This document shows, in pieces, positions 47,446 through 57,123 of a stretch of 64,000 bases of DNA. Position 1 is the stretch's first letter. The number at the start of each line of letters is the position of its first letter. Source of the stretch: Actinobacteria bacterium IMCC26077. GTDB taxonomy: Bacteria; Actinomycetota; Actinomycetes; Nanopelagicales; Nanopelagicaceae. The position numbers were made by a program, and so were the translations under genes. The stretch lies in contig CP015606.1 of the NCBI GenBank assembly GCA_002284915.1, positions 868,001 through 932,000 of the forward strand, in the 5' to 3' direction. The notes below the pieces were generated by a model that was given only the letters and a program-made list of their open reading frames with translations, was not told where the DNA came from and did not search any database.

Positions 47446-48507
47446 ATGGCTACCAATCACCTCGAAGAGTTAGGGCGAGCGCTTGCTTTCGGAGCGCGCC
47501 CCAACCAGCCGTTAAGCCGGGAGAAGTTAATCGCCGCGCTCGGCACCGTTCCCTCTCTGCCAGAAGATTTCAACCTTGTTCGAGGAGAGATTGCCGAATT
47601 TGATGGGGTGCAAATCACTGAACTTTCTTGGAACGTGGGTTGGGGAGAGCGAAGTGAAGCCTTTCTTCTTACTCCTATCGGCGTCGACCACCCACTTCCT
47701 GGCGCGCTCTACCTGCATAGCCACGACGATCTCAAAGAATTTGGAAAGGAAAAGGTCGCGCAACGAGATCAGGCCGGATTGCCAGAACGGGCGGCATGGG
47801 TTCGGCGACATCATTACGGAGATCGAGCTCCGGCAAATGAATTAGCTAAACGTGGTTTTGCCGTGCTCGTCCATGACTGCTTTCCCTGGGGCTCGCGCGG
47901 GTTCTCTTTGGATGAACTTCCTCCTCGCATCAAGGAGATCCATGGCCAAGCAACCGCTGCAGAATTTGAGAATCTTTCGGTGATGTTTGAATCGCTCTCG
48001 CTCAACAAATATCTAAGTCTCTATGGCGCAACGATGGCAGGAATCCTTAATCATGAAGATCGAGTCGCGCTGGAAGTAGCGAAACAATTACCTGAGATAA
48101 CTGACTCAATCTCTGCAATTGGATTATCAGGTGGTGGTTGTCGAGCGATCTTCCTTCATGCCACTAATCCAGAACTAACCGCAGTGGTCTCCACCGGGGC
48201 TATGGCTACCTACGCTTCGATGCTCCATGAACATATCGCGCCACATTCGTGGATGTTCTTTCCCTTCAATCTCGCTGCCTCCGGTGAATGGCCGGAAGTC
48301 GCAATGATTTCGGATACCCCCCTCTTTGTGCAGTATTGCGGAGAAGACCAACTCTTTACGAAAGAAGGAATGGCGACGGCGCATAGCGCGTTAGAGCGTA
48401 ACGACCAGGGTCGCGGAAATTACCGCGGTGACTTCTATCCAGTTCAGCACTCTTTCACTGTTCCCATGCAAGAAGCAGCTTTTGATTGGTTGGCAAAGCA
48501 TGCCTAG
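47446..48507 (+). CDS. Alpha/beta hydrolase in the uronate operon
   Basis: A 353-residue esterase-like protein without signal peptide. GALYLHSHDDLKEFGKE forms the oxyanion strand; VLVHDCFPWGSRGF and AIGLSGGGCRAIFLH carry the nucleophile Ser (GxSxGG), FVQYCGEDQLFTKEG the likely acid and PVQHSFTVPMQ the likely His. It resembles large cytosolic acetylxylan-esterase/dienelactone-hydrolase-like proteins. Encoded first, overlapping uxaC by eight bases, it may cleave an ester or lactone of a uronic acid; this is inferred from context. Confidence 0.75.
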   Translation: MATNHLEELGRALAFGARPNQPLSREKLIAALGTVPSLPEDFNLVRGEIAEFDGVQITELSWNVGWGERSEAFLLTPIGVDHPLPGALYLHSHDDLKEFGKEKVAQRDQAGLPERAAWVRRHHYGDRAPANELAKRGFAVLVHDCFPWGSRGFSLDELPPRIKEIHGQATAAEFENLSVMFESLSLNKYLSLYGATMAGILNHEDRVALEVAKQLPEITDSISAIGLSGGGCRAIFLHATNPELTAVVSTGAMATYASMLHEHIAPHSWMFFPFNLAASGEWPEVAMISDTPLFVQYCGEDQLFTKEGMATAHSALERNDQGRGNYRGDFYPVQHSFTVPMQEAAFDWLAKHA

Positions 48508-49909
48508 GGGATACGCGGATCGGTATTTCGAATGTAGTAACGATGCTCTCCCACTTGCGCGAGCGCTCTATCAGGAAATGTCAGCCTTGCCGATACTTTC
48601 ACCGCACGGCCACGTCAACCCAAAGCTCTTGGCGGAAAATTGCGCGTTCGCAGATCCGGTCGCACTGCTGATCTCGCCCGACCACTACATCACACGGATG
48701 TTAGCTAGCCAAGGCATCACATACGAAGAGTTGAATCTGCCAGATCGAAGCGGAGAACGAACGAAGAAAATTCCTGCAGAACAGATATGGCAGTTGTTAG
48801 CAGAGAATTGGCAGGCTTTTACAGGAACACCATCGAGGATCTGGTTCGAAGAGATTCTCACGCAGATTTTTCACATCGAGCTCCCATTTGATCAGGACAA
48901 TGCGGCAGAAATCTATCGGCAAATCTCCCGCCGATTGGAAGACAGCGATTTTCTTCCACAAACCCTCTTTGAGAGTTTCAACATAGAGGTTCTGGCAACA
49001 ACTGATGGAACGAGCGACTCGCTCGAGTTTCATAAAGCCCTCGAAGAGACTCCGCTGCAATCGAAGGTCATTCCAACATTTCGCCCCGATGATGTTAGTG
49101 ATCCAGAACGAGCAGATTGGAAGCAAGCGCTGGCGAAACTTGAGCAAAGCACCAACCTCACCATCACATCCTTCGCATCACTTCGTTTTGCACTTCGAAC
49201 TGCTCGCGACCGATTCATTCGTAATGGCGCAAAAGCGACCGACCATGGCGTTCCCACGCCCTTCACCATTGATTTGTCAGAGCAGGCGAAGGAAGAGCTC
49301 TTCAGCGAACTTCAGGCTAGGCCAGCCACTCCTGAGAACGCAGAACTATTTCGCGGCGTGATGCTCATGGAGCATGCCCAAATGTCTGCTGATGATGGCT
49401 TAGTGATGCAAATCCACCCGGGATCAGTGCGAAACTACTCGACGAGCATCTTCGAAAAATTTGGCCCCGATCGCGGCTATGACATCCCGGCACGAACTGA
49501 ATTCACGAAGAACCTTCGGCCATTGCTTGAACGATTCGGTTTCGCCCAGAATTTTAGATTGGCGCTCTTTACCCTTGATGAATCGACTTACTCGCGGGAG
49601 CTGGCGCCGATAGCTGGAGCATTTCCTACGGTGAAGCTTGGTCCGCCATGGTGGTTCCATGACAGCCTCAACGGAATGCGTCGTTGGCGTGATGCGACTA
49701 TCGAGACCGCCGGCATCATGAACACCATCGGATTCATCGATGACACCAGAGCATTTCTCTCGATACCAGTTCGCCACGATGTTGCCCGTAGATTTGATGC
49801 GGGGTACCTCGCTGAATTGGTCAGCAGCCATCGAATACGCGAAGCAGATGCACATTTTCTTGCCATGCAGATTGCCTATCATTTATCGAAGGATTTCTTC
49901 CGGCTATGA
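48500..49909 (+). CDS. uxaC: Uronate isomerase (UxaC)
   Basis: An amidohydrolase-fold isomerase converting galacturonate to tagaturonate or glucuronate to fructuronate. The HGHVNP metal motif occurs near residue 36, with GVMLMEHAQMSADDGLVMQIHPGSVRNYS and KLGPPWWFHDSLNGMRRW in the C-terminal half. ATG 48500 gives 469 residues, the usual size; an earlier start would lie deep within the preceding gene. It overlaps uxaB by four bases. Confidence 0.93.
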   Translation: MPRGYADRYFECSNDALPLARALYQEMSALPILSPHGHVNPKLLAENCAFADPVALLISPDHYITRMLASQGITYEELNLPDRSGERTKKIPAEQIWQLLAENWQAFTGTPSRIWFEEILTQIFHIELPFDQDNAAEIYRQISRRLEDSDFLPQTLFESFNIEVLATTDGTSDSLEFHKALEETPLQSKVIPTFRPDDVSDPERADWKQALAKLEQSTNLTITSFASLRFALRTARDRFIRNGAKATDHGVPTPFTIDLSEQAKEELFSELQARPATPENAELFRGVMLMEHAQMSADDGLVMQIHPGSVRNYSTSIFEKFGPDRGYDIPARTEFTKNLRPLLERFGFAQNFRLALFTLDESTYSRELAPIAGAFPTVKLGPPWWFHDSLNGMRRWRDATIETAGIMNTIGFIDDTRAFLSIPVRHDVARRFDAGYLAELVSSHRIREADAHFLAMQIAYHLSKDFFRL

Positions 49910-51237
49910 ACCAGCTCAAGCCTGGTTATGCACGTGATGGTCGACCGGTTGGCGTTATTCATTTTGGATTAGGAGCATTCCACCGCGGCCATCAAGCGGT
50001 TTATTTTGATGAAGCCCTGGAAAAGGGCAGCGGAGAGTGGGGTATCTATGGAATCTCGCCGCGAAGTACTTTAGTTACCGATCTCTTACGAAAACAAGAT
50101 TTCTGTTACACCGTGAACGCCCGTGCTGGGAGCGAGCAAAATCCAAGAGTCATCAGCTCCATTTTCGATGGTTCCATTTTTGACCTATCAAATGCTGAGT
50201 TACGCAAGGCAGTTCATTCGCCAGAACTGAAGTTGATAACAGTCACTGTGACTGAAAAGGCATATCAAGTAAGTAGTGAATTAGATTCGATGCCCAATCG
50301 ACTACTTGATATTTTGCACCTTCGATTTGTCGCCGGACTGAGCGGCCCAACGGTTATCTCGTGCGACAACCTACCTTCCAATGGTTCAAGGTTGGCGGAG
50401 GTGCTCTTGGCTAGCGCTGAGCGGCGGGGGATGACCAGTGATTTCCGCAGCTGGCTGAGCGAGCAATCCTTTCCTGATTCGATGGTTGATCGGATTGTTC
50501 CAGCAATCACCTCAGATGCCGTTTCACAATTTGAGCGCGATTTCGGATACCGGGATGAATCGTTGATTTCGACCGAACCGTATCGTCAATGGGTGGTAGC
50601 ACCGCATTCAGGCAGCGATGCTCTTGCCGAACTTGGAATTGATGTATCTCCAGAGATTGCGCGTTATGAAACGCTCAAGTTACGACTCTTCAATGGCGCC
50701 CATTCGACGACCGCCTACTTCAGTCAACTATCAGGTATCGAATATGTCTATGAAGCTATGGCCATCCCTGAATGGAATAGCTTCATCTCTGACCTACAAG
50801 AGGAATTAAGTGCATCTTTTGAAGGACCACGAGCTATAGACCCACAGCGATACGGAGCTGAAGCTCGTGCGCGTATTGGTAATAGCGCCGTGGCTCATCG
50901 AAGCGCCCAGATTGCTATGGATGGTTCTGCAAAGTTGCCACAACGCCTCTTTCGTGCGATGAATTCACTTAGTGAGCGAGGTTTAGCGCGCGAGCGGATT
51001 GCCTTTGCTGTGGCGCTTTGGATTCGCTTCCTGCAGAGCGCAAACTCCGTTGTCGACCCGTTGGCGAGTGAATTACTGCTACGAGCGCGAGTATCGAAAC
51101 CTGCCGATGCAGTTGCTGGCGTCATGCGAATTCCAGGCTTGTTGGATGCGATTTCCGAGCCTGACTGGCCACTGATTGCAGGGGCGCTTAAGGAACTATC
51201 CGAAGCCACACCTCTGGCTGCGGCGATGAGAATCTAA
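49906..51237 (+). CDS. uxaB: Mannitol-dehydrogenase-family uronate reductase (UxaB-like)
   Basis: A long-chain polyol dehydrogenase, 443 residues, with N-terminal NAD-binding segment (GVIHFGLGAFHRGHQAVYFDEAL), SCDNLPSNGSRLAEVLL and the catalytic-lysine segment KLRLFNGAHSTTAYF. The family includes fructuronate reductase UxuB and tagaturonate reductase UxaB. The UxaA homologues next door act on altronate, so tagaturonate to altronate is favoured. No uxuA is present in the window. Confidence 0.85.
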   Translation: MNQLKPGYARDGRPVGVIHFGLGAFHRGHQAVYFDEALEKGSGEWGIYGISPRSTLVTDLLRKQDFCYTVNARAGSEQNPRVISSIFDGSIFDLSNAELRKAVHSPELKLITVTVTEKAYQVSSELDSMPNRLLDILHLRFVAGLSGPTVISCDNLPSNGSRLAEVLLASAERRGMTSDFRSWLSEQSFPDSMVDRIVPAITSDAVSQFERDFGYRDESLISTEPYRQWVVAPHSGSDALAELGIDVSPEIARYETLKLRLFNGAHSTTAYFSQLSGIEYVYEAMAIPEWNSFISDLQEELSASFEGPRAIDPQRYGAEARARIGNSAVAHRSAQIAMDGSAKLPQRLFRAMNSLSERGLARERIAFAVALWIRFLQSANSVVDPLASELLLRARVSKPADAVAGVMRIPGLLDAISEPDWPLIAGALKELSEATPLAAAMRI

Positions 51238-51240
51238 TAA

Positions 51241-52416
51241 TTATTGCGTTGACCCGTAGAGTCGAGAGAGATTGAATTCACGGTGACCGCCAACTTCGGC
51301 TGCACTCAATTTTCCATTGGCAACTTCGATAATTTCTTTGAAGATTCGGTCGCCAACTTCAGCCACAGTTTCAGTGCCATCGGCGATGGTGCCAGCATTG
51401 AGGTCGATGAGATCTGGTAGTGAAAGTGCCATCTCAGTGTTGGTAGCAACCTTGATCGTAGGGATTACTGCAGAGCCGGTTGGTGTACCGCGGCCAGTGG
51501 TGAAGACGGTGATATTCACATCTGCCGCTGCAAAACCTGTGAGTTGTTCAATGTCATGTCCTGGCGTATCCATGAAATAAAGCCCAGGCTCAGTGGGGAG
51601 GTGTGCGTAATCGAGAACGCCAGTAAACGGAGCGTTGCCAGCTTTTTTCGCGGCGCCAAGTGATTTCTCTTCAAGAGTAGTCAGGCCGCCTTCGATGTTG
51701 CCTCGACTCGGTTGGGCGCCCCGAATATCGATGCCTTCGTATGTGATTGATCGTTCATAACGGGCAACAACATCAATGATTGCCTGTCCAATTTCTGGGC
51801 TCTTCGCTCGCGCAGCAAGGAGATGTTCTGCGCCAAGAATCTCCATAGTTTCGGCGAGAATCGAGGTCGCACCCAGTTCGACAAATTTATCGCTGGCCAC
51901 GCCCAGGGCTGGGTTAGCTGTAATTCCGGAGTACGCATCAGAGCCGCCGCATTCCAGACCAAGTACGAGAGCGCTCCAGGGAGCAGGTGTTCGTACTGTT
52001 TGCGAAATCGAAGGGAAAATTTCCGAAACCGATTGGAAAATGCGCTCTTGCAATTTCTCAAACCCGCCGGCATCTTTGAGAGTCAAATAATTGATGGGCA
52101 TATTCCGACGAGATCTCGCTGCGTTCACGATACTTTCCTCATCTTCGGTACCAATACCGACGATTATCGTCGCACCGACATTTGGGTTGACTGCGAATCC
52201 AGAGAAGACTCTGCGAATTCGCTCCCAATCTGTATCGACCTCACCACTCCAATCATGGCTGACCGAGGTGATTATCGGACTTGCTGGGTGCGATGTTCGT
52301 ACTTCGTCCACTAGTTGGTTGAGCGCATTATGCAGCGGGAGAATGAGTATGTAATTACGGAATCCCCAACGCCCATTCGTTCGTTCGAAACCGGTCAACT
52401 GAGAATCTCTGTTCAT
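51241..52416 (-). CDS. uxaA: Altronate dehydratase large-subunit homologue, C-half intact
   Basis: A 391-residue UxaA large-domain protein. Its second half keeps the family motifs LVLGLECGGSDAYSGITANPALG, EEKSLGAAKKAGNAPF, GLYFMDTPGHDIEQLTGFAAA and FTTGRGTPTGSAVIPTIKVATN. The first half is recognisable (GFERTNGRWGFRNYILILPL) but has lost the three conserved Cys: no Cys after the PL segment, SHDWSGEVD in place of an HxxGC motif, and GIGTED in place of GxGCE. ATG 52416 overlaps the upstream stop by one base. It probably works as a complex with the two upstream products. Confidence 0.85.
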   Translation of the reverse strand: MNRDSQLTGFERTNGRWGFRNYILILPLHNALNQLVDEVRTSHPASPIITSVSHDWSGEVDTDWERIRRVFSGFAVNPNVGATIIVGIGTEDEESIVNAARSRRNMPINYLTLKDAGGFEKLQERIFQSVSEIFPSISQTVRTPAPWSALVLGLECGGSDAYSGITANPALGVASDKFVELGATSILAETMEILGAEHLLAARAKSPEIGQAIIDVVARYERSITYEGIDIRGAQPSRGNIEGGLTTLEEKSLGAAKKAGNAPFTGVLDYAHLPTEPGLYFMDTPGHDIEQLTGFAAADVNITVFTTGRGTPTGSAVIPTIKVATNTEMALSLPDLIDLNAGTIADGTETVAEVGDRIFKEIIEVANGKLSAAEVGGHREFNLSRLYGSTQ

Positions 52417-53222
52417 CAAACGCTCCGAACCATGCGGGGAACGACGATATCGCCAATTTTCTTCGCTTCAGATTTACTCGGCTCACCATTGGCTACATCG
52501 AGGATTTTCTGAAAGAGATCTTTTCGATTTACATTCGAGTGGCAATCGAACTCTTGCACCAGAGCGAGGTGAAGTGGCGAATCTGCATTGGCAATCGTAA
52601 TCACAGGAATCAACGGGTAGCCCGATGGAGGTTGCAGGGGATCGGGAAAAGAGAGTATGAGGTGGCATTTTGCGCGGACTAAGTCGCCAAAATTACGTGA
52701 CGATTCTTTATAGCGATTAGCAAGTACTACTGAATGGCCAGCCCCCTGAATATCTTCGGTAATTTGTTGTAGCAACTCTGGATTGGGAGACCCCTCGATG
52801 CCGATAACGAGTGCATTCAACGGAGCGCGTTCAGGATCGCCTTGGAGCGATTTCGCAGTGGCAATACTTGAATCAAGGGCCCCTGCCATGCCTGCGCTTT
52901 CTTGGATGACAACATATTCAGTCTCGGGATAATCCTTTGTGATGCTATCGGTGACTTCGTTACCCTGCAGCGTCTCGCAGCCCAAGCCGAGTACGACGGT
53001 CGACTGCACATTGGGATGGCCTGCGAGAGCGACGAAAAATTCGTTGACGCCCGAGACATCTGGTCCGATGATTCCGCATCCGTGTTGATGTGCAAATGAA
53101 ATCGCACCGACCTGATCAGCAACTTTTCTTGCTAGGTGAGTGGAGCAGACCACGGATGGCAAAATCAGTTGATAGCTACGCACCCCAACACCGCGGGAGT
53201 TGTTTCGATAGCCGGTGATCAT
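52416..53222 (-). CDS. Second altronate dehydratase-like subunit, N-half Cys motifs intact, short
   Basis: A 268-residue UxaA-family protein with the N-half motifs that its neighbour lacks: GYRNNSRGVGVRSYQLILP, SVVCSTHLA, FAHQHGCGIIG and LGLGCETLQGNEV. The second half is short and altered: GIEGSPNPELL stands where GLxCGGSDxxSG is expected, and the FTTGRG block is absent. It is coupled to both neighbours by ATGA and TGATG overlaps. The pattern implies a duplicated subunit whose two copies divided the active-site elements. Confidence 0.8.
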   Translation of the reverse strand: MITGYRNNSRGVGVRSYQLILPSVVCSTHLARKVADQVGAISFAHQHGCGIIGPDVSGVNEFFVALAGHPNVQSTVVLGLGCETLQGNEVTDSITKDYPETEYVVIQESAGMAGALDSSIATAKSLQGDPERAPLNALVIGIEGSPNPELLQQITEDIQGAGHSVVLANRYKESSRNFGDLVRAKCHLILSFPDPLQPPSGYPLIPVITIANADSPLHLALVQEFDCHSNVNRKDLFQKILDVANGEPSKSEAKKIGDIVVPRMVRSV

Positions 53223-53512
53223 GTTGTTGGCTCCGTCGAGACACGATCGCCAATGACATTGTGTGTATGCACATGTGAGCCTCGAGGGATGGCATGGTAG
53301 GTATGTCCCATCCGCTCTCCATATTTGATGATTGGTTCACCTTTGGCGATATCGACAAGGGCAATCTTGTGACCTCGGGGGATAGCCGTTCGTACTTCAA
53401 GTGGAGAGGCAAGATCAGACTGCTCGAGAATGGTGCCAACTGCCAGCTCCTGCAAAGCGATTGCAATGTTATCTCGAGAATCAAGAACGATTAGGGTATT
53501 TGCTCTCGCCAT
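53219..53512 (-). CDS. SAF-domain subunit of altronate dehydratase
   Basis: A 97-residue stand-alone SAF domain matching the N-terminal part of UxaA: TLIVLDSRDNIAIALQEL, IPRGHKIALVDIAKGEPIIKYGERMG, and HVHTHNV. In most bacteria this is fused to the large domain or is a separate small subunit. ATG 53512 gives the expected N-terminus and has TAGAGT eight bases upstream (53521-53526 on the minus strand). It is first in the three-gene operon. Confidence 0.87.
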   Translation of the reverse strand: MARANTLIVLDSRDNIAIALQELAVGTILEQSDLASPLEVRTAIPRGHKIALVDIAKGEPIIKYGERMGHTYHAIPRGSHVHTHNVIGDRVSTEPTT

Positions 53513-53763: not shown

Positions 53764-54639
53764 GTGAAAACAAAACGTACGATCGCTGCGCTATTCCTCG
53801 CACTCTTTGCTCTAGTGGCGACGAGCTGCGCCAGCAGCACCTCAACTGATGAAGCAGCTGCGCCAGCAGAATCGGCAGCCACCAACGAGTGCGCTCCAGC
53901 TTCACTTCAAACTTTAGAAGCTAATACCTTGACCATCGCAACTGGCGAGCCGGCTTACTCACCTTGGGTGCTCAACGATGCTCCTGAGAAAGGTGAAGGC
54001 TTCGAAGCTGCAGTTGCCTACGCAGTGGCTAAGCAACTCGGTTACACCAACGATCAAGTCAAGTGGGTTCGCACCACATTCGATTCGGCAATCGCACCAG
54101 GACCGAAGACGTTCGATTTCAATATTCAGCAATACTCCATCACTGATGAACGGAAAAAGGTCGTTGATTTCTCGAGCGCCTATTACTTCTCGAATCAGTC
54201 GATTGTCTCTTTCAAGGGAAGCAAGATCGAGGGAATCACCACCATTGCTGATCTCAAAGCAAAGGGCGCCAAGCTCGGCGCCGCTGTTGCCTCGACCTCA
54301 CTCGATACCATCGAGCAACAGTTTGGTCTGAAAGCTCAGGTGTTTAACGATAATGCTGCAGCAGTGGCCGCTCTAAAGAATGGTCAAATCGATGGGCTCG
54401 TTGTCGATCTACCAACCGCGTTCTATCTCTCTGCAGTTGAAGTTCCGAACGGCATCATCGTCGGTCAAGTAGAGAATCGCGATTCCAATGATCAAGGCGC
54501 CGGTCTACTACTAGCGAAAGATAGTCCGCTCACCAAGTGCGTCACCGGCGCTGTGGATGCCCTTCGCGACAACGGTGAGCTCAAGTCGATCACTGATACC
54601 TGGTTAGCAACTTCGGCAGGGGCGCCATACCTTTCTTAA
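53764..54639 (+). CDS. Polar amino-acid ABC transporter substrate-binding lipoprotein
   Basis: A family-3 (PAAT) periplasmic-type binding protein anchored as lipoprotein: lipobox LVATSC at residues 16-22 after a basic/hydrophobic signal. The mature protein has GEPAYSPWVLND, GFEAAVAYAVAKQLGY, FDFNIQQYSITDERKKVVDFSSAYYFSNQ and KNGQIDGLVVDLPTA, which resemble amino-acid binders. The SAM-IV leader suggests methionine or another sulfur/methyl compound as ligand rather than Glu, Gln or His. GTG start 53764 lies after TAGGGA. Confidence 0.87.
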   Translation: MKTKRTIAALFLALFALVATSCASSTSTDEAAAPAESAATNECAPASLQTLEANTLTIATGEPAYSPWVLNDAPEKGEGFEAAVAYAVAKQLGYTNDQVKWVRTTFDSAIAPGPKTFDFNIQQYSITDERKKVVDFSSAYYFSNQSIVSFKGSKIEGITTIADLKAKGAKLGAAVASTSLDTIEQQFGLKAQVFNDNAAAVAALKNGQIDGLVVDLPTAFYLSAVEVPNGIIVGQVENRDSNDQGAGLLLAKDSPLTKCVTGAVDALRDNGELKSITDTWLATSAGAPYLS

Positions 54640-54661
54640 GGTGTGACGAACCCGGACGTAG

Positions 54662-55585
54662 ATGAGCTCCACAGGTAGCGAAAGCCGAGAAGGTCGGGGA
54701 GAGGGCGTGTCCAGCGATGGGCGCGCCCTCTCTTCTGGCGGTTGGTCGCCAAGCGAGCGCGAAATCCGGCGAAGGAGTTTTCGGCGACGAGCTGCGCTCA
54801 GATATGGATTGATTGCCGCAGGCTCGAGCGCTCTAGTCCTAGGCACGCTACTCATCGTTCTCGTCACTTCACCTGGTTTTACTACGCTCTCTGACACTTT
54901 CTTCAATTGGGTCTATGGCGCGCAGGTCCTGCCTAAGGTTCTGCTTGGATTCATGACCAATGTCACGCTTACAGTCATTGCTGCGTCCTGTGTAGCGATC
55001 TTTGGATTAGCCATTGCGCTATTGCGAACCTCACGTTCACCCGCGTTGACGCCATTTCGCTTCCTCGCAACGGTATATGTCGATCTCTTCCGCGGTATTC
55101 CGATGATCTTGGTCATCTTGCTCGTTGGTTTTGGGATTCCGGCGCTGCGCATCCCGGGGCTTACAAATAATGTGCTCATCCTTGGCACACTCGCAGTGAT
55201 CATCACTTATACCGCGTATGTTGCTGAAGTTTTACGAAGTGGCATTCTTACCGTGCACCCAAGCCAACGTGCCGGCGCCCGTTCATTAGGGCTCTCACAC
55301 TTCCAATCATTGCGGCACGTAGTCTTGCCGCAGGCCCTTAAGCGAGTAACCCCACCACTTCTAAACGACCTCATCGCGCTCATTAAAGACACCGGATTGG
55401 TCTCAATTCTTGGTGTCACCGATGCCGTTCGGGCAGCTCAGATTGCGAGTAGTCGATCATTTAATTACACACCATATGTAGTAGCGGCGATTGTTTTTCT
55501 CTTGGTGACTATTCCACTGACCCGATTCACTGACCGGGCGATACGTCGATCAATCGAGCGACAGAATGCCCAAGGTTTAGCATGA
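54662..55585 (+). CDS. Polar amino-acid ABC transporter permease
   Basis: A membrane subunit with five to six helices and the PAAT EAA-like motif SQRAGARSLGLSHFQSLRHVVLPQALKRVTPPL. The N-terminal 45 residues are basic, Ser/Gly/Arg-rich and non-membrane, longer than usual. VDLFRGIPMILVILLVGFG is the conserved HisM/GlnP region. It overlaps the ATPase gene by four bases. As a single permease gene it probably forms a homodimer. Confidence 0.9.
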   Translation: MSSTGSESREGRGEGVSSDGRALSSGGWSPSEREIRRRSFRRRAALRYGLIAAGSSALVLGTLLIVLVTSPGFTTLSDTFFNWVYGAQVLPKVLLGFMTNVTLTVIAASCVAIFGLAIALLRTSRSPALTPFRFLATVYVDLFRGIPMILVILLVGFGIPALRIPGLTNNVLILGTLAVIITYTAYVAEVLRSGILTVHPSQRAGARSLGLSHFQSLRHVVLPQALKRVTPPLLNDLIALIKDTGLVSILGVTDAVRAAQIASSRSFNYTPYVVAAIVFLLVTIPLTRFTDRAIRRSIERQNAQGLA

Positions 55586-56343
55586 GTAATAAATCTGCGC
55601 TTAAAGTTGATTCATTGCGCAAATCTTTCGGGAGCGAGTTAGTACTGGACTCGGTTTCATTCGATGTTCCGGAAGGCAGTGCAACGGTGCTAATTGGCGC
55701 TTCCGGTTCTGGTAAATCCACTCTGCTCCGCTGTATCAATCTTCTAGAGCAAATAGATGACGGGGCCATTTTTCTTGATGAGGAAGAGATCACCAATCCG
55801 GAGATTGATATCGATCAAACTCGGCGAAAGATTGCGATGGTCTTCCAGGCGTTTAATCTCTTCCCCCATAAAACCGTACGTGAGAACATCACGCTCGCTC
55901 CCGTAATCGTCCATCGCCTCACTCGCGACGAGGCCAATCAGCGGGCTGATGAATTGCTGAAACGTTTTGGGCTTTACGAGAAGGCTGAGCAATACCCAGA
56001 TCGCCTTAGTGGAGGACAACAACAGCGCGTGGCGATCATCAGGGCCCTTGCTGTTAACCCTCGTGTCCTTTTGCTCGACGAAGTTACTTCGGCGCTTGAT
56101 CCAGTCCTTGTTAACGAAGTTCTAATGACTGTAAAAGAATTGAAAGAAGATCAGAGCTCTGCCATGACTATGGTTATTGCAACGCATGAGATGGGGTTTG
56201 CCCAGCAAGTGGGCGATCAAGTCTGTTTCTTAGAAGGCGGCGCCGTGGTTGAGATCGGAGCTTCTGCTCAAGTACTCAAGGATCCCCAAGATAAGCGCAC
56301 AAAGGATTTTCTCCGTAAAGTCCATGAAGCAGGCCGCCTCTAA
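55582..56343 (+). CDS. Polar amino-acid ABC transporter ATPase
   Basis: GlnQ/HisP-like ATPase of 253 residues: Walker A IGASGSGKSTLLRCIN, Q-loop MVFQAFNLFPHKTVREN, signature RLSGGQQQRVAIIRALAVNP, Walker B VLLLDEVTSALDP and H-loop VIATHEMGFA. No C-terminal ACT/NIL domain as in MetN exists, so it is not the classical MetNIQ type despite the SAM-IV control. The next gene starts at the base after its stop. Confidence 0.93.
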   Translation: MSNKSALKVDSLRKSFGSELVLDSVSFDVPEGSATVLIGASGSGKSTLLRCINLLEQIDDGAIFLDEEEITNPEIDIDQTRRKIAMVFQAFNLFPHKTVRENITLAPVIVHRLTRDEANQRADELLKRFGLYEKAEQYPDRLSGGQQQRVAIIRALAVNPRVLLLDEVTSALDPVLVNEVLMTVKELKEDQSSAMTMVIATHEMGFAQQVGDQVCFLEGGAVVEIGASAQVLKDPQDKRTKDFLRKVHEAGRL

Positions 56344-57123
56344 GTGGCCACGGTCAATTTCGAAATACGTGAAGGCGATAGCGATTCCACAGTAATTCTC
56401 CATGTTCCGCATGCTTCGCGCGAAATACCCCTCGCGGAACGAGATGATCTTCTACTCGACGAACCGGCACTCAATCGTGAACTTGATGCAATGACCGACA
56501 CCGACACCGATTTGTTAGCTATTGCAGCCCGTAACCAAGCGAAGGTCAAACCGTGGATTTTTCAAAACAAACTTTCACGATTGGTCATTGATCCGGAACG
56601 TTTCCCTGATGACCGCGAAGTGATGAATTCAATTGGTATGGGAGTGGTCTATTTGAAGACTTCAGATGGAAGCGATTTACGAGAGATTGATAAAGTCCGA
56701 GATTCCCAATTACTTGAGAGATTCTTCCATCCGTATGCGTTAGCGTTTGAAGAGCTAGTTCGGAGTGTGCTGAACCGACTAGGGAAGGTCACGATTATTG
56801 ATGTCCATTCCTATCCAAGATTCGAACATCTCAATGGCGTGAATAAGGGGCAACGACGTCCAGCTGTCTGTCTTGGTGTCGATGATTTTCACACACCTGC
56901 ATGGCTTCTGAATTTGGCGCAGTCGCATTTTTCGCGGGCAGGTGATGTCATCATCAATGAACCATATGCCGGAACGTACGTTCCGCTCTCGCGCTACCGG
57001 GTTGATTCGCGGGTAAGTTCAGTGATGATGGAGAACCGTGAAGATACAATTGTCGGCGCTGGGCTTTCACGTTCTGCCACTGTATTGGCGGATTTGATTG
57101 ATGCAATCGAGGAGAGTCGTTGA
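56344..57123 (+). CDS. N-formylglutamate amidohydrolase-family enzyme
   Basis: A Zn-dependent amidohydrolase-like protein (259 residues) with the family motifs in order: VILHVPHASREIP, DTDTDLLAIAA, SRLVIDPERFPDD, TIIDVHSYP (metal His), RPAVCLGVDDFHTP and NEPYAGTYVPLSRY. HutG-type members deformylate N-formyl-L-glutamate; substrate range is poorly known elsewhere. No histidine-degradation genes are nearby, and the gene lies in a SAM-IV operon behind an amino-acid importer, so an N-formyl (for example formyl-methionine) or similar acylated sulfur amino acid is worth considering. GTG start joins the previous TAA. Confidence 0.82.
   Translation: MATVNFEIREGDSDSTVILHVPHASREIPLAERDDLLLDEPALNRELDAMTDTDTDLLAIAARNQAKVKPWIFQNKLSRLVIDPERFPDDREVMNSIGMGVVYLKTSDGSDLREIDKVRDSQLLERFFHPYALAFEELVRSVLNRLGKVTIIDVHSYPRFEHLNGVNKGQRRPAVCLGVDDFHTPAWLLNLAQSHFSRAGDVIINEPYAGTYVPLSRYRVDSRVSSVMMENREDTIVGAGLSRSATVLADLIDAIEESR

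Follow-up and report, generated by a model that had tools for sequence, protein, structure and literature searches.

Three overlapping genes in Nanopelagicales probably encode one UxaA/GarD-type dehydratase with complementary active-site halves

Three overlapping genes in Actinobacteria bacterium IMCC26077 (Nanopelagicales) encode a lone SAF-domain protein and two paralogues of the large UxaA/GarD domain, here termed alpha and beta, each of which lacks the half of the active site that the other keeps; the three products probably form a heteromer in which these halves complement one another. It is also possible, though we hold this more tentatively, that the complex builds one iron center from three cysteines of alpha and one of beta, with neither chain having an active site of its own. 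As far as the open literature that we searched shows, the triplet is an undescribed three-chain form of a known enzyme. The window analyzed here is a 64,000-nucleotide stretch of contig CP015606.1 (positions 868,001 to 932,000); its relevant features, numbered from its first letter, are the following.

53219..53512, minus strand: SAF-domain small subunit gene, 97 aa (PF08666, 2.6e-5)
52416..53222, minus strand: alpha, large-domain paralogue with the N-half and a shrunken C domain, 268 aa (PF04295, 2.2e-25)
53145..53147, minus strand: alpha Cys26, C1 of the four-cysteine set (SVVC26), from alignment with E. coli UxaA/GarD; invariant among alphas
53076..53078, minus strand: alpha Cys49, C2 (HQHGC49), from the same alignment; invariant among alphas
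52977..52979, minus strand: alpha Cys82, C3 (GLGC82E), from the same alignment; invariant among alphas
51241..52419, minus strand: beta, large-domain paralogue with the C-half (PF20629, 2.8e-93; PF04295, 5.9e-19)
51949..51951, minus strand: beta Cys157, C4 (GLEC157GGSD); invariant among betas, replaced in every alpha
51487..51504, minus strand: beta FTTGRG active-site motif; common to beta, canonical UxaA, and GarD, missing in alpha
48428..49909, plus strand: uxaC (glucuronate/galacturonate isomerase), convergent neighbor (PF02614, 2.1e-75; NCBIfam PRK02925 above cut-off)
49906..51237, plus strand: mannitol-dehydrogenase-family hexuronate reductase, UxaB/UxuB-like (PF01232 and PF08125)

The earlier note on this DNA had described three overlapping minus-strand cistrons, a lone SAF domain with proteins of 268 and 391 aa, and all three are present as described. 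The overlaps span 1 to 4 bp: ATGA between the SAF and alpha genes, and between alpha and beta either TTGA or, with an ATG start for beta, a single base pair (TGATG); beta is 392 aa long from the TTG at 52419 and 391 aa from the ATG at 52416. Both large chains are members of the family by its second domain (GD_AH_second, PF04295), at 89.7 bits for alpha and 68.9 bits for beta against a cut-off of 27.3, and the beta-clip domain is supplied by the separate SAF gene (PF08666, 25.1 bits against a cut-off of 21), whose product also matches the galactarate dehydratase model TIGR03248 over model residues 3–78. Beta matches PF20629 (GD_AH_C) at 312 bits; Pfam gives no match to this model for the window's alpha. 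A search of the organism's own genome with PF04295 found no gene beyond those of the triplet.

Alignment with E. coli UxaA and GarD recovers four invariant cysteines: C1 (xxxC past the first strand), C2 (HxxGC), C3 (GLGCE), and C4 (CGGSD). Alpha has C1–C3; its C4 is replaced, CGGSD and FTTGRG are gone, and about 110 residues are deleted inside its C domain. Beta has C4 within CGGSD, FTTGRG, an invariant YEGIDIRGAQPSRGNIEGG loop, and the entire C domain, with C1–C3 replaced by Ala, gap/Ser, and Thr. Read at the four positions, alpha is CCCG and beta A-TC, giving CCCC only when combined; among 70 tabulated sequences, all alphas are CCCx, all betas xxxC, and all canonical enzymes CCCC. The mirror-image pattern proposed in the earlier note, with SVVC, HQHGC, and GLGCE but neither CGGSD nor TGRG on the 268-aa chain, is thus borne out by alignment. 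Its worry that this chain might belong to another family with a full site of its own fails, as alpha has an ordinary GD_AH_second N-half, three of the four iron-site cysteines, and no C4. A study of D-arabinonate dehydratase singled out four cysteines, Cys134, Cys173, Cys208, and Cys276, as the only ones conserved in UxaA/GarD members other than SuyAB; its authors proposed them as ligands of a rubredoxin-like iron and asked that their EPR data be analyzed further (PMC6336799). From order and conservation, we infer that C1–C4 correspond to these residues; that four cysteines bind the iron in this family is, for its part, still a proposal.

The complementary loss is fixed among relatives. In the genomes of 100 relatives, an unbiased protein search gave 19 strong matches to alpha, one of them the window's own, and beta adjoins alpha in all 19; the cysteine pattern does not vary among the 18 orthologues of each chain from this search, nor in further loci, which rules out chance or an assembly fault. 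A motif scan across some 85,000 species genomes, with patterns that included C2 and therefore favored Cys-bearing alphas (a bias the other protein searches do not share), yielded 46 full loci, all actinobacterial and several named as genera of the freshwater Nanopelagicales. Both the SAF–alpha–beta order and the complementary cysteine loss are found in 46 of 46. Four freshwater MAG contigs with a Nanopelagicales triplet (L024, L032, L035, L066) are titled 'Bifidobacterium breve', and these titles look like mislabels. One genome (G006) with a normal triplet also encodes a divergent alpha-like protein of 343 aa (L088:2290-3318), which has C1-like and C3-like cysteines, no HxHGC, and an additional C-terminal stretch.

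The split also occurs in other lineages. A GD_AH_second search across the phylum found two further cases, which we refer to as families f68 and f44. In f68, the same SAF–alpha–beta triplet is present in three genomes (L073, L092, L093), with the SAF gene itself read in L073. In f44—probably, as we take it, the Rubrobacteraceae, of the same phylum as the window—SAF, beta, and alpha follow one another, in that order, in a single chain of 900–950 aa. The beta-type part of this chain lacks C1–C3 and carries QCGGSDAFSG and FTTGNGS; the alpha-type part carries SLCxGQ, HTEGC, and EHGCEK, and has no C4. The fused chain or a fragment of it was read in fourteen genomes; in the order to which f44 belongs, a single open frame contains two GD_AH_second domains in 23 of 39 genomes. 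Such a natural fusion of both halves offers indirect support for a complex of alpha, beta, and SAF. On haloarchaeal plasmids the order is beta–SAF–alpha, mostly with short overlaps, and the cysteines are divided as in the window in all six operons read; a relative of the haloarchaeal alpha, at 46% identity or more, is present in 16 plasmid records. Genera with the split are Haladaptatus, Haloterrigena, Natronococcus, Halarchaeum, Halomarina, and Halostagnicola, and the trio is annotated merely as three 'UxaA family hydrolase' genes. The f68 and haloarchaeal alphas match part of PF20629 above cut-off. A further two-gene UxaA-family type occurs in Haloarcula pelagica (L133:3998-5164), with Tyr, Arg, and Gly at C1, C2, and C3 and CATSD replacing CGGSD; its genes adjoin a histidinol-dehydrogenase-like gene.

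Phylogenetic trees suggest that this division was reached repeatedly. In free trees the beta groups lie apart: those of Nanopelagicales and f68 fall together, the haloarchaeal betas lie near SuyB-like proteins, and the f44 beta stands alone. A single clade of all betas is rejected on the C-domain tree (AU p 0.013), so the split probably arose more than once; on the full-length tree, the alignment for which kept the trait columns, the rejection is borderline (p 0.0496). Lineage-specific duplication is not rejected, either for Nanopelagicales with f68 (p 0.156) or for haloarchaea (p 0.112). At least two origins, one in actinobacteria and one in haloarchaea, would be a fair reading of these trees; the alphas sit on long branches, and their own grouping may be an artifact. 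The paralogy and complementary loss put forward in the earlier note are therefore upheld well beyond the window, being fixed across Nanopelagicales, seen in other lineages, and joined by a natural single-chain fusion with both halves.

Predicted structures place both chains in the fold of GarD. The AlphaFold model of alpha (pLDDT 89) aligns with GarD 6u7l at Z 18.7 and rmsd 3.6 over 234 residues, 1–268 against 119–523 with a gap at the deleted part, and that of beta at Z 38.8 and rmsd 2.7 over 341 residues; a phmmer search of PDB sequences with alpha gave no meaningful match, whereas the fold comparison did give GarD. The earlier note said that the 268-aa protein lacks the C-half GLxCGGSD and FTTGRG blocks; it does, but it keeps a shrunken C-terminal domain, and the match of its model to GarD spans the full chain. 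In the single-chain models, C1 and C3 of alpha and C4 of beta each lie just beyond the end of a strand, which is consistent with their lining a cleft. Beta segments 159–167 and 227–249 are nearly all invariant and mostly below pLDDT 50; this might fit loops that need a partner or ligand, although the shallow alignment could also be the cause.

On the reading that we favor, a large-subunit gene would have been duplicated; alpha would have kept the N-half elements (C1–C3 with the HxHGC and GLGCE loops) as its C domain shrank to a scaffold, and beta the C-domain site (C4/CGGSD, FTTGRG, and the invariant loop) as it lost C1–C3. The N-half of alpha and the C-half of beta would then have to meet for a working site, perhaps with iron held by three alpha cysteines and one from beta, and SAF, alpha, and beta would make up one iron-dependent sugar-acid dehydratase, an obligate heteromer. 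GarD reportedly dimerizes via its second domain, and this domain is present in both paralogues; should the same mode apply here, one site of a heterodimer would combine the intact halves and the other would be dead. A variant of the same heteromer, which we consider rather unlikely, has two sites, for example one on alpha for a structural iron or Fe–S center and one on beta for a catalytic divalent metal. C1–C3 and C4 do lie in different domains, and the EPR data flagged for more analysis by their authors (PMC6336799) leave room for such an arrangement; against it, the four cysteines are conserved jointly in canonical members and have been lost jointly and complementarily in several lineages.

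The main rival to the heteromer with complementary halves is that beta and SAF are catalytic alone, performing the chemistry without C1–C3 in the manner of SuyB, with alpha as an accessory that loads or protects iron, stabilizes the dimer, or regulates. The metal of the solved GarD structure is reportedly in the C domain, which counts toward this alternative, as does the existence of SuyB-type members without C1–C3. Recombinant SuyB alone retains activity (PMC6278857); the loss of C1–C3 from beta is therefore no proof that it needs a partner. Beta is not, however, SuyB itself: it has CGGSD and FTTGRGT rather than the CGESD and FPTGQGN of SuyB, and it groups with canonical dehydratases, apart from the SuyB-like rows, which form a clade of their own (100/100). 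Alpha also speaks against this rival, as its three cysteines are invariant while its remainder drifts. Alpha was found in 44 and a close beta in 45 of 201 genomes of the family; in the one beta genome without alpha the contig stops right where alpha is expected, and no close beta was found without alpha on intact sequence in this sample. Mean pairwise identity among 32 genomes is 67% for the N-half of alpha against 48% for its C-half, and 51% against 80% for beta, and 39 of 123 positions are invariant in the N-half of alpha against 18 of 135 in its tail. Canonical control enzymes, too, conserve the N-half less than the C-half (a difference of about 0.10), so the beta gradient stands out clearly in Nanopelagicales alone; for alpha the canonical gradient is reversed, in Nanopelagicales, haloarchaea, and f44 and only weakly in f68. 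The telling signal is this reversed gradient in alpha together with the exaggerated one in the Nanopelagicales beta. Taken together, we judge catalysis by beta and SAF alone to be unlikely.

Many Nanopelagicales genomes separately encode a SuyB-type two-gene UxaA-family pair (L081–L087; 388-aa ORFs with a SAF gene upstream), with CGESD, PTGQG, and C1–C3 lost, close to proteins of Paracoccus and Rhodococcus plasmids; sulfolactate use by freshwater actinobacteria via this pair is possible. A SuyB-type protein from another family of the class (L074, G087) has even C4 replaced by Asp.

The reaction of the proposed heteromer is most likely D-altronate to 2-keto-3-deoxygluconate, because the triplet adjoins uxaC and the hexuronate reductase gene. 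The best NCBIfam match of the latter is fructuronate reductase, below the cut-off of that model, and the gene is kept together with uxaC in related loci. The genome also has members of the mannonate dehydratase and KDPG-aldolase families elsewhere, which makes a hexuronate pathway plausible; two adjoining UxuA (mannonate dehydratase) family genes of 327–328 aa (G000:C1:1317134-1319007) form a tandem duplication in the same pathway, and a third lies at 750410. The triplet lies by uxaC in 12 loci, by an FMN-dependent hydroxyacid dehydrogenase in 21, and by FGGY-kinase/class II aldolase genes in 7, so other sugar acids are possible substrates. The same variety of contexts might suggest two independent enzymes, alpha acting on one sugar acid and beta on another, brought into one operon by chance. 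We find this very improbable: each chain lacks residues of the active site that are invariant in the family, and the two are adjacent in every locus read and form one chain in f44. Alpha is shorter than beta, yet its frame is open and conserved in 46 of 46 loci, at 41–69% identity to the window's alpha, so decay into a pseudogene or a sequencing artifact can be dismissed.

Other neighbors were also noted. An amino-acid-type ABC transporter (binding protein, permease, and ATPase; 53764–56343), divergent from the triplet, adjoins it in just 3 of the 46 loci and is followed by a weak hutG-like gene (56344–57123). On the other side, a 353-aa alpha/beta-hydrolase-like gene (47446–48507) overlaps the listed uxaC start by about 80 bp and remains beside uxaC in 12 related loci; the true start of uxaC is probably further inside than 48428.

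The triplet shares its SAF, PF04295, and PF20629 modules, the fold of alpha and beta, a total of four cysteines, and FTTGRG with E. coli UxaA (D-altronate dehydratase) and GarD (galactarate dehydratase, PDB 6u7l) of COG2721. In these enzymes, however, all four cysteines are in one chain, whereas in the window there are three chains, a 3+1 division of cysteines, and one shrunken C domain. The earlier note took UxaA to be normally SAF plus large domain; the three-gene split is real, but a separate SAF gene is itself common in the superfamily. SuyAB, the (R)-sulfolactate sulfo-lyase, has a separate SAF subunit and a large subunit without C1–C3, but this large subunit is single, releases sulfite, and has no alpha-like partner; the SuyB-like proteins read here have CGESD/PTGQG motifs, unlike beta. 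Two-gene UxaA-family dehydratases (SAF plus about 390 aa with all four cysteines, as on a Priestia megaterium plasmid, 391 aa) resemble the triplet in their split-off SAF and sugar-acid dehydratase context, but have one complete large subunit; a heteromeric L-fuconate dehydratase of this type is mentioned in PMC6336799. The haloarchaeal operons show the same complementary split over two large paralogues plus SAF, and differ from the window in gene order and in an alpha of about 365–380 aa with a less reduced C domain. No description of such an alpha/beta heteromer, these operons included, was found in the open-license PMC literature, in agreement with the earlier note, which knew of no description of the arrangement.

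The triplet is a clear natural example of a duplicated gene whose copies have lost complementary parts of the active site, something that seems to have happened more than once, in bacteria and in archaea. Neither the metal site nor the mechanism of the superfamily has been settled, and with the halves naturally on separate chains that can each be mutated or titrated independently, the role of the four cysteines can be tested directly. For annotation, three 'UxaA family hydrolase' genes of this kind likely represent one enzyme. Single-gene models would miss freshwater Nanopelagicales as carriers of such a dehydratase; scores against TIGR03248 fall far below the cut-off of that model.
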